Source of the DNA: Deltaproteobacteria bacterium
GTDB taxonomy: Bacteria > Desulfobacterota > Desulfobaccia > Desulfobaccales > 0-14-0-80-60-11
Length of the DNA: 39,357 bases
Assembly (NCBI GenBank): GCA_016875015.1
Contig: VGSJ01000022.1
Coordinates: 1-39,357, forward strand
Direction: 5' to 3'
This document shows positions 17,668-19,030 of the stretch, piece by piece. Made by a program: the position numbers and the translations under genes. The first letter of the stretch is position 1; each line of letters starts with the position of its first letter. Below the pieces are notes generated by a model that had not been told where the DNA came from, did not search any database, and worked only from the letters and a program-made list of their open reading frames with translations.

Positions 17668-18090
17668 ATGGCGAGATTAGGTTTCATAGAATTTTACTAC
17701 AGCACCAAACACAAACCGGTCGAGAAATATAAGTGCGATAATGCCAACGCACTTAATTTGCTGAAAAGCCTGGAGGCCAAAGGGGTAGAGACTGCGGCCA
17801 TCGATATGGCCGACAACCCGGACCCGTTCAAGCAGTACCACAAGGCGTCCAGTGGCCCGGCCTCGGAATTTCGTCCCGTTTTCGGCGAGGTTCGGGGATC
17901 GGATTATAAAGAATATTTTGGCAAGACCATCCCGGCTCTGTGCTGCTACACCAAGAAAGGCGACCGGGCTCCCGTTGAGGTCTTCCCCCGCGGCGACAAG
18001 AAACTGGGGCGGGAATATCTCATCGAGGAATTTTTGGAAAATTATATCGGCGAGCTGGAAGGACGGATCGAGTCCCCCGAAGCCCGCTAA
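17668..18090 (+). CDS. Unrecognised protein, possibly thioredoxin-like fold
   Basis: A 140-residue soluble protein that I do not recognise. It has an N-terminal strand [11 protein letters not shown], an amphipathic helix around [15 protein letters not shown], a strand [10 protein letters not shown], then a Gly/acidic linker. The segment [22 protein letters not shown] with a helix after it resembles the cis-Pro strand and last helix of thioredoxin-fold proteins. No CxxC is present at the expected site (STKHKP instead), but an isolated CC lies at the cis-Pro strand. It is a single-gene unit with a near-consensus -35, a strong ribosome binding site and a good terminator, so it is probably well expressed. 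The assignment to the thioredoxin fold is only a suggestion from pattern. Confidence 0.8.
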
Positions 18091-18320
18091 GACCAGCGCT
18101 TCATCCGGCCCCACCGGCAGCAGAGGTGGGGCCTTTTTATTGATCGCAGCCGGCGGCATTCCGCCTCGATGGCAGGTCCGCCGGCCCGGTGGATGGCCCC
18201 GTCCACTCCGCCCCCGGGACGCAGAGCGGCATTGGCGGCGCTGACTATGGCGTCCGTGTCTTGCCGGGTGATATCCCCTTCCACCAGCTCCAGGGTTGAT
18301 GGACCGACTTCCACTTCCAT
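18087..18320 (-). pseudogene. Truncated macro-domain (ADP-ribose-binding) gene
   Basis: A 77-codon frame whose first 55 residues are the N-terminal third of a macro domain: [20 protein letters not shown], then [20 protein letters not shown], which are the ADP-ribose-binding N-A-x-N-type and G-G-G-V-D-x-A-I-H loops. Intact macro domains need about 170 residues. Here homology ends after IEAECRR, and the remaining 20 or so residues are translated from the terminator of the convergent gene. So the distal two thirds are gone. It has a fair ribosome binding site (GGAG, 8 nt) and lies 78 bases downstream of the UGA-containing thioredoxin-like gene on the same strand. It might still be expressed, but could not form the normal fold. 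Confidence 0.75.
18107..18138 (+). terminator. Rho-independent terminator
   Basis: GGCCCCACC pairs perfectly with GGTGGGGCC across a 9-nt loop and is followed directly by TTTTT. It ends the 140-residue gene, 17 bases after its stop codon. On the other strand it forms the last codons of the truncated macro-domain frame. Confidence 0.9.
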
Positions 18321-18398: not shown

Positions 18399-18974
18399 TC
18401 AGTTGGGTATGAGGCGGTACGGGGCCGCCCGTTTGGTCCACTCGCTGCCGGGGAATTTGGCCGTCAGGGTTTCGTAGGATGCCCGCAGGGGTTTGGGATC
18501 ATGGGTCATTTTATAGCGGGAAACCCCCATAAAGAAGACGGCCTCCGCCGCCGCGGCGCTGTCGGGATAGTCCCTCAGGGCCTCGTCGAACATGCCCTGG
18601 GCCTCGGGATGCTGCTCGGCGTTGAAATAATATTTGCCCTTGCCCACCATGAAGGTGGAAATGAATTCCTCGGGCGCGAGAAACCCCACCACGCGATGGA
18701 TCTCGTTGCCGTCGGCATCCAGCACGATGATGGTGGGAGTCCAACTCACCTTGAACTGATTCATCAGGGCGGTGTTCGAAGCCTCGATCTGAACCGGGAC
18801 AAAGTTATAATCCACGAACTTGACGACCTTGTCGTTGGGGTACGTAACCGCACCCATCTGTTGGCAACCGATTCACTGGGGATTGAAAAAGTCCAGGAGA
18901 ATGGGCTTTTTCGTCTGTCGGGCGTGGTCCTTGGCCTTGGCCAGATCATTTAGCCAGCAAATATTCAGGGCCAT
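18399..18974 (-). CDS. Thioredoxin-like protein with in-frame UGA, predicted selenoprotein (U-I-G-C)
   Basis: Read from ATG 18974 (AGGAG 9 nt upstream), the frame gives MALNICWLNDLAKAKDHA and KPILLDFFNPQ, hits TGA at codon 34 (18875-18873), then continues in the same frame with IGCQQMGAVTYP to a stop at 18399. The TGA sits where the first Cys of the CxxC redox motif is expected (UIGC, residues 34-37). The thioredoxin fold continues with the cis-Pro loop SWTPTIIV (Pro80). A TPR-like helical tail (about 105-185, with DYPDSAAAAEAVFFMGVSRY) follows. Total length is 191 residues. A hairpin fitting a bacterial SECIS starts 17 nt after the TGA. The alternative is an inactivating nonsense mutation, but the placement argues strongly for selenocysteine. 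Role: thiol-disulfide exchange, inferred. Confidence 0.82.
18838..18855 (-). promoter_or_regulatory. Candidate bacterial SECIS element
   Basis: On the minus strand the sequence GGGTGCGGTTACGTACCC forms a 6-bp stem (one G-U pair) with a six-base apical loop GGUUAC. It begins 17 nt after the in-frame TGA, and its loop lies 24-29 nt after it. Bacterial SECIS elements have a small apical loop with a G/GU at about this distance; the E. coli fdhF loop is GGUC. A lower stem GUUG/CAAC could extend it with a bulge. Confidence 0.65.
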
Positions 18975-19030
18975 AGAGATTTTCTCCTTTTTTCGGGATT
19001 GGGGCCAAGTCTGGCCCGCATGTTGGACAA

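Follow-up and report, generated by a model that had tools for sequence, protein, structure and literature searches.

The window analysed here, a stretch of 39,357 nucleotides from a Deltaproteobacteria bacterium (contig VGSJ01000022.1), carries a minus-strand gene in which the in-frame UGA at codon 34 is almost certainly read as selenocysteine, which is predicted to give a small thiol-redox protein. The conserved UGA, a recoding hairpin behind it, genes for the insertion machinery, the predicted fold and the combination of a UxxC motif with a cis-Pro position, all computational evidence, lead us to explain the gene as a selenocysteine (Sec)-dependent oxidoreductase. More specifically, it is very probably a Sec-first, DsbD-gamma-like thiol-disulfide oxidoreductase with a putative client- or chaperone-recruiting TPR-like tail (Table 1).

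Table 1. Features of the predicted selenoprotein gene, with positions in the window.
Feature	Position	Strand	Basis or remark
Predicted selenoprotein CDS, 191 residues and stop; thioredoxin domain and TPR-like tail	18399..18974	-	one in-frame UGA
UGA predicted to be read as selenocysteine, codon 34, first position of U-I-G-C	18873..18875	-	every aligned Sec-type locus (53/53) has TGA; seven divergent homologues have Cys
SECIS region of 45 nt, beginning with the U of the UGA; stem arms 18855-18849 and 18844-18838, loop GUUA 18848-18845	18831..18875	-	covariation; covariance model, 66 bits
Shine-Dalgarno-like GGAG, 9 nt 5′ of the ATG	18984..18987	-	similar GGAG in relatives
Thioredoxin domain, residues 1-108; nearest solved fold DsbD-gamma	18651..18974	-	Pfam, AlphaFold2, fold search
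Helical TPR-like tail, residues 101-191	18402..18674	-	AlphaFold2, profile search, fold match

Translation of the minus strand across the gene reads MALNICW...LLDFFNPQ-U-IGCQQMGAVTYP...WTPT...PYRLIPN-stop, and the TGA is its sole interruption, which bears out the claim of an earlier sequence-only reading that the frame is open on both sides of this codon. The same reading had placed the TGA at the first position of a CxxC motif, a cis-Pro at Pro80 and a ribosome binding site at the upstream ATG, and each placement held: residues 34-37 are U-I-G-C, the cis-Pro loop consists of W78-T79-P80 with an invariant Thr79-Pro80 pair, and a GGAG lies ahead of the ATG.

The best Pfam match of the protein is Thioredoxin_2 (PF13098), at 57.6 bits over a cut-off of 27. 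AlphaFold2, run with 56 sequences, gave a model (pLDDT 96.8, pTM 0.90) in which the strands and helices up to about residue 108 form a thioredoxin fold and a run of helices follows. Together, the Pfam score, the UxxC/CxxC motif with its cis-Pro position and the fold mark a thioredoxin-fold oxidoreductase. The redox domain superposes on DsbD-gamma (1vrs) with a Z score of 13.8 and an rmsd of 1.7 over 106 residues at 26% identity; the earlier description of the domain as thioredoxin-like thus stood as far as the fold is concerned, while the nearest solved structure is DsbD-gamma and not a classical thioredoxin. For the tail, Pfam TPR matches at residues 112-144 were sub-threshold (TPR_6, 19.8 bits against a cut-off of 26.3), a profile search of the PDB by sequence agreed with a TPR-like tail (CpoB), and structural matches were found to TPR chains such as BamD and YbgF, although these may reflect only a common helical arrangement. 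A TPR-like tail, as first proposed, is therefore retained from profile and fold matches and from weak Pfam ones, with the refinement that it is short (about 85 residues). Since the N-terminus has no apparent signal sequence, the protein is most likely cytoplasmic.

In the mechanism that we propose, SelB and tRNA-Sec, guided by the hairpin, would insert selenocysteine at residue 34, where it would sit at the N-terminus of helix 1 of the DsbD-gamma-like domain as the attacking selenolate. Sec34 would open a disulfide (or an oxidised thiol) of a client protein, the mixed selenenylsulfide would be resolved by Cys37 to leave a Sec34-Cys37 bond, and this bond would be re-reduced by the cellular thiol-reducing system. 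The short tail is probably where the client or a chaperone is held, much as in CnoX, a chaperedoxin of Trx-TPR architecture. We infer the reductase direction, the electron donor and the binding of a client or chaperone by the tail; on the Trx-TPR precedent of CnoX, our working model is that the tail would hold the client while the Sec34-Cys37 pair reduces it.

A compatible refinement, which we regard as rather unlikely, is that a real Sec protein has a CnoX-type holdase or chaperedoxin role as its main task and uses its redox site to protect or repair the thiols of clients. CnoX is described as a Trx domain joined to a TPR domain that acts as both reductase and holdase in Caulobacter (PMC6282202). 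The shared architecture, a thioredoxin fold followed by TPR, speaks for such a role, as does the first place of E. coli YbbN (CnoX) in the Foldseek search; moreover, TPR_20 (PF14561), our domain criterion for CnoX, had no match over its cut-off anywhere in the window's genome, so that no canonical CnoX was seen there. However, the Pfam scan of the window protein likewise returned no match to TPR_20, the two-domain superposition on YbbN was poor (TMq 0.37, rmsd 11.8), and the window protein is shorter (191 versus about 282 residues), with a shorter tail and a UxxC motif rather than SxxC or WCxxC. A thioredoxin match elsewhere in the genome, L005, was considered as a possible CnoX and rejected, being a secreted-type thioredoxin with no TPR tail.

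A table-11 ORF of 152 aa begins at ATG 18857, 3′ of the UGA, and bears out the expectation of the sequence-only reading that a standard gene caller would start downstream of that codon. It is nevertheless very improbable that this ATG is the true start and that the upstream part is untranslated. A protein begun there would lose beta-strand 1 and the active-site residue, whereas the 33 codons upstream of the TGA show protein-level conservation that extends to distant relatives, the start and the GGAG are conserved in near ones, and homologues such as L069-L071 have an open frame without a TGA.

The UGA is followed, after 17 nt, by the hairpin GGGUGCG-GUUA-CGUACCC, which occupies nucleotides 21-38 counted from the U of the UGA and has the first G of its loop at nucleotide 28; this is the arrangement sought for a bacterial SECIS, a hairpin just 3′ of the UGA with a G opening the apical loop. 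In 47 of 53 Sec loci each of the first six pairs was a standard one, whereas non-Sec loci formed at most four and the hairpin was absent in the eight non-Sec homologues. Compensatory change was seen in the column pairs 23-36 (A-U 20, G-C 16) and 24-35 (U-A 34, A-U 3), and at one locus (L083) the stem sequence differs (AAUACG...CGUAUU) with pairing retained. Two-sided changes were found in 23 cells, compared to 8.3 in shuffles, and the covariation score was reached by none of 500 shuffles. One control was mixed: a shift by -2 raised the covariation score (0.333 versus 0.237), while the paired cells dropped (68% versus 88%). Furthermore, threonine codons within the hairpin were ACG in 43 of 45 cases, compared to 94 of 469 in the remainder of these genes. 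When a covariance model was trained on 43 other sequences, with the window's own left out, its only strong match in the 3.1 Mb genome fell on this region (66 bits, E 7.5e-16), the next best match scoring no more than 12.5 bits. An Rfam scan of the window returned no match to a SECIS family; its only match was a group II intron (D1-D4-3, positions 62-232 of the minus strand, 130 bits).

The genome to which the window belongs encodes the machinery that the sequence-only reading had suggested looking for: selA (contig C25, 609 bits), selB (C4, 374 bits), tRNA-Sec (C47, 75 bits against a gathering score of 47) and selD (C82, 376 bits) were all found. The selD gene (G000 C82:1381-2298), which lies outside the window, itself contains one in-frame UGA. 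These genes bear on whether the UGA could have been reassigned to another residue, such as Trp or Cys, as in code 4. Conservation by itself proves only that UGA is a sense codon here, but TGA also serves as the stop codon of this same protein and of many relatives, genes for tRNA-Sec, SelA and SelB are present, a SECIS-like hairpin follows and homologues have Cys at the position, all of which makes reassignment hard to credit.

Across relatives, a full-length orthologue was found in 18 of 22 genomes of the family; these orthologues are 57-99% identical to the query, and in each a single TGA interrupts the frame. The named records of the same lineage are MAGs labelled Deltaproteobacteria, Syntrophobacterales and Desulfobaccales. 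In a sample of the phylum, 61 of 297 genomes matched at E 1e-15, and a TGA was present in 55 full-length matches. The position of the TGA was checked by translation and alignment in 53 Sec-type loci, some from within the genus and others from remote parts of the phylum; it fell at the UxxC position in every one, and most share the motif FNPxU[I/L]GC[Q/K]QM. A TGC or TGT codon damaged to TGA, in a pseudogene or through sequencing error or mis-assembly, would look alike if TGA replaced Cys in a single lineage, and the genome is a draft of 148 contigs, but the same TGA recurs in many families and in independently assembled genomes, which excludes the sequencing error, codon differences from relatives concentrate at third positions both 5′ and 3′ of the TGA as under purifying selection, and the hairpin covaries, leaving this explanation next to no probability. 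Taken together, the conserved UGA, the covarying hairpin and the Sec machinery in the genome strongly support the original selenoprotein reading.

Eight divergent loci lack Sec, and seven of them have Cys at the codon, which supplies the Cys homologues that had been called for as a check. The CxxC motif is kept in three (L069, FDG-C-VGC; L071, LPE-C-VGC; L072, HPA-C-GGC), while four (L070 and L073-L075) have Cys at the first position and Ser at the second, and L076 has neither Cys. The latter five all come from one family, f58, and have Ser at the position of the resolving Cys, some with a GYDGGGSAGSGAY-like C-terminus; their redox chemistry has probably changed or been lost. The unrooted tree requires three changes between Sec and non-Sec forms. 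A search for selA in 57 relatives found none in three genomes that are 98-100% complete and all have non-UGA forms (G214, G296 and G301). G301, which has the Cys form, is sister to G196 (support 100/100), which has the Sec form together with selA and tRNA-Sec, and this contrast fits the pattern expected if Sec changed to Cys upon loss of the machinery. Non-Sec forms were also found in the selA-bearing genomes G035, G138 and G236. The search also gave no selA match in three Sec-form MAGs of one genus, G026, G062 and G098, that are 62-79% complete and each have a tRNA-Sec match above the gathering score, and the selA match of G170 was only partial.

Upstream of the selenoprotein gene lies a divergent GAF-GGDEF gene, and downstream, on the same strand, a macro-domain gene that is kept as a neighbour within the family and not beyond it. 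Over the 20 genomes compared, no neighbour was conserved outside the family, and we therefore name no partner. The macro-domain gene (18087-18320, minus strand) encodes 77 residues and covers 45 of 118 Pfam positions, compared to about 175-180 residues in relatives of the same genus or family; from its length it looks like a recent deletion or a pseudogene. At 17668-18090 on the plus strand, a conserved protein of 140 residues with no Pfam match is encoded, and three further genomes of the family have it in much the same location.

The window protein resembles the C-terminal (gamma) domain of DsbD, whose family we take to be cd02953, in fold and in the position of the redox pair, and differs from it in standing alone, without a membrane domain, in having Sec for the first Cys and in its helical tail. 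A UxxC 'Thiol:disulfide interchange protein' with PF13098 is entered in a 2026 inventory of 119 families (PMC13188914, Table 1), the GOS survey places the same UxxC family under cd02953 as 'Trx-like 2' (PMC2398784), and such a family is reported in Geobacter metallireducens, G. uraniumreducens and Syntrophus aciditrophicus (PMC1794560). UxxC DsbD-gamma-like selenoproteins are thus already catalogued, and the window protein adds a member. By description, including the Sec-first UxxC and PF13098, this family (representative WP_011366075.1) is the likely home of the window protein, although its descriptions, as far as the accessible text of these sources goes, mention no TPR tail, unlike what is seen here. 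We give only limited credence to the alternative of a separate, undescribed family of Sec-dependent, chaperedoxin-like Trx-TPR proteins across the phylum, in which Sec would be the usual state and Cys the exception, arising in some lineages after loss of the Sec machinery. None of the papers searched was found to describe a Trx-TPR selenoprotein, plasmid records gave only partial, DsbD-like matches and no annotated orthologue, and a library of defence proteins gave no match. TsoB and other Trx-like selenoproteins of NCBIfam (NF045694, NF041383, NF041199) share a thioredoxin-like domain with the window protein, but it scores far under their cut-offs (805, 275 and 300 bits) and differs in domain make-up; its best match in NCBIfam release 20 was TsoB, at 53 bits against the cut-off of 805. 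No dedicated model was found in that release, where all matches of the 56 aligned members are to this one set of broader or other families.

The family is common in the phylum sample, mostly in Sec forms, and as no dedicated model was found in NCBIfam, its active site is likely to be missed by automatic annotation. Its bacterial SECIS is strongly conserved and has a clear consensus, and in G196 and G301 nature provides a clean pair in which to compare the Sec with the Cys form. Should the tail bind clients or chaperones, the protein would connect selenium with protein quality control in anaerobes.
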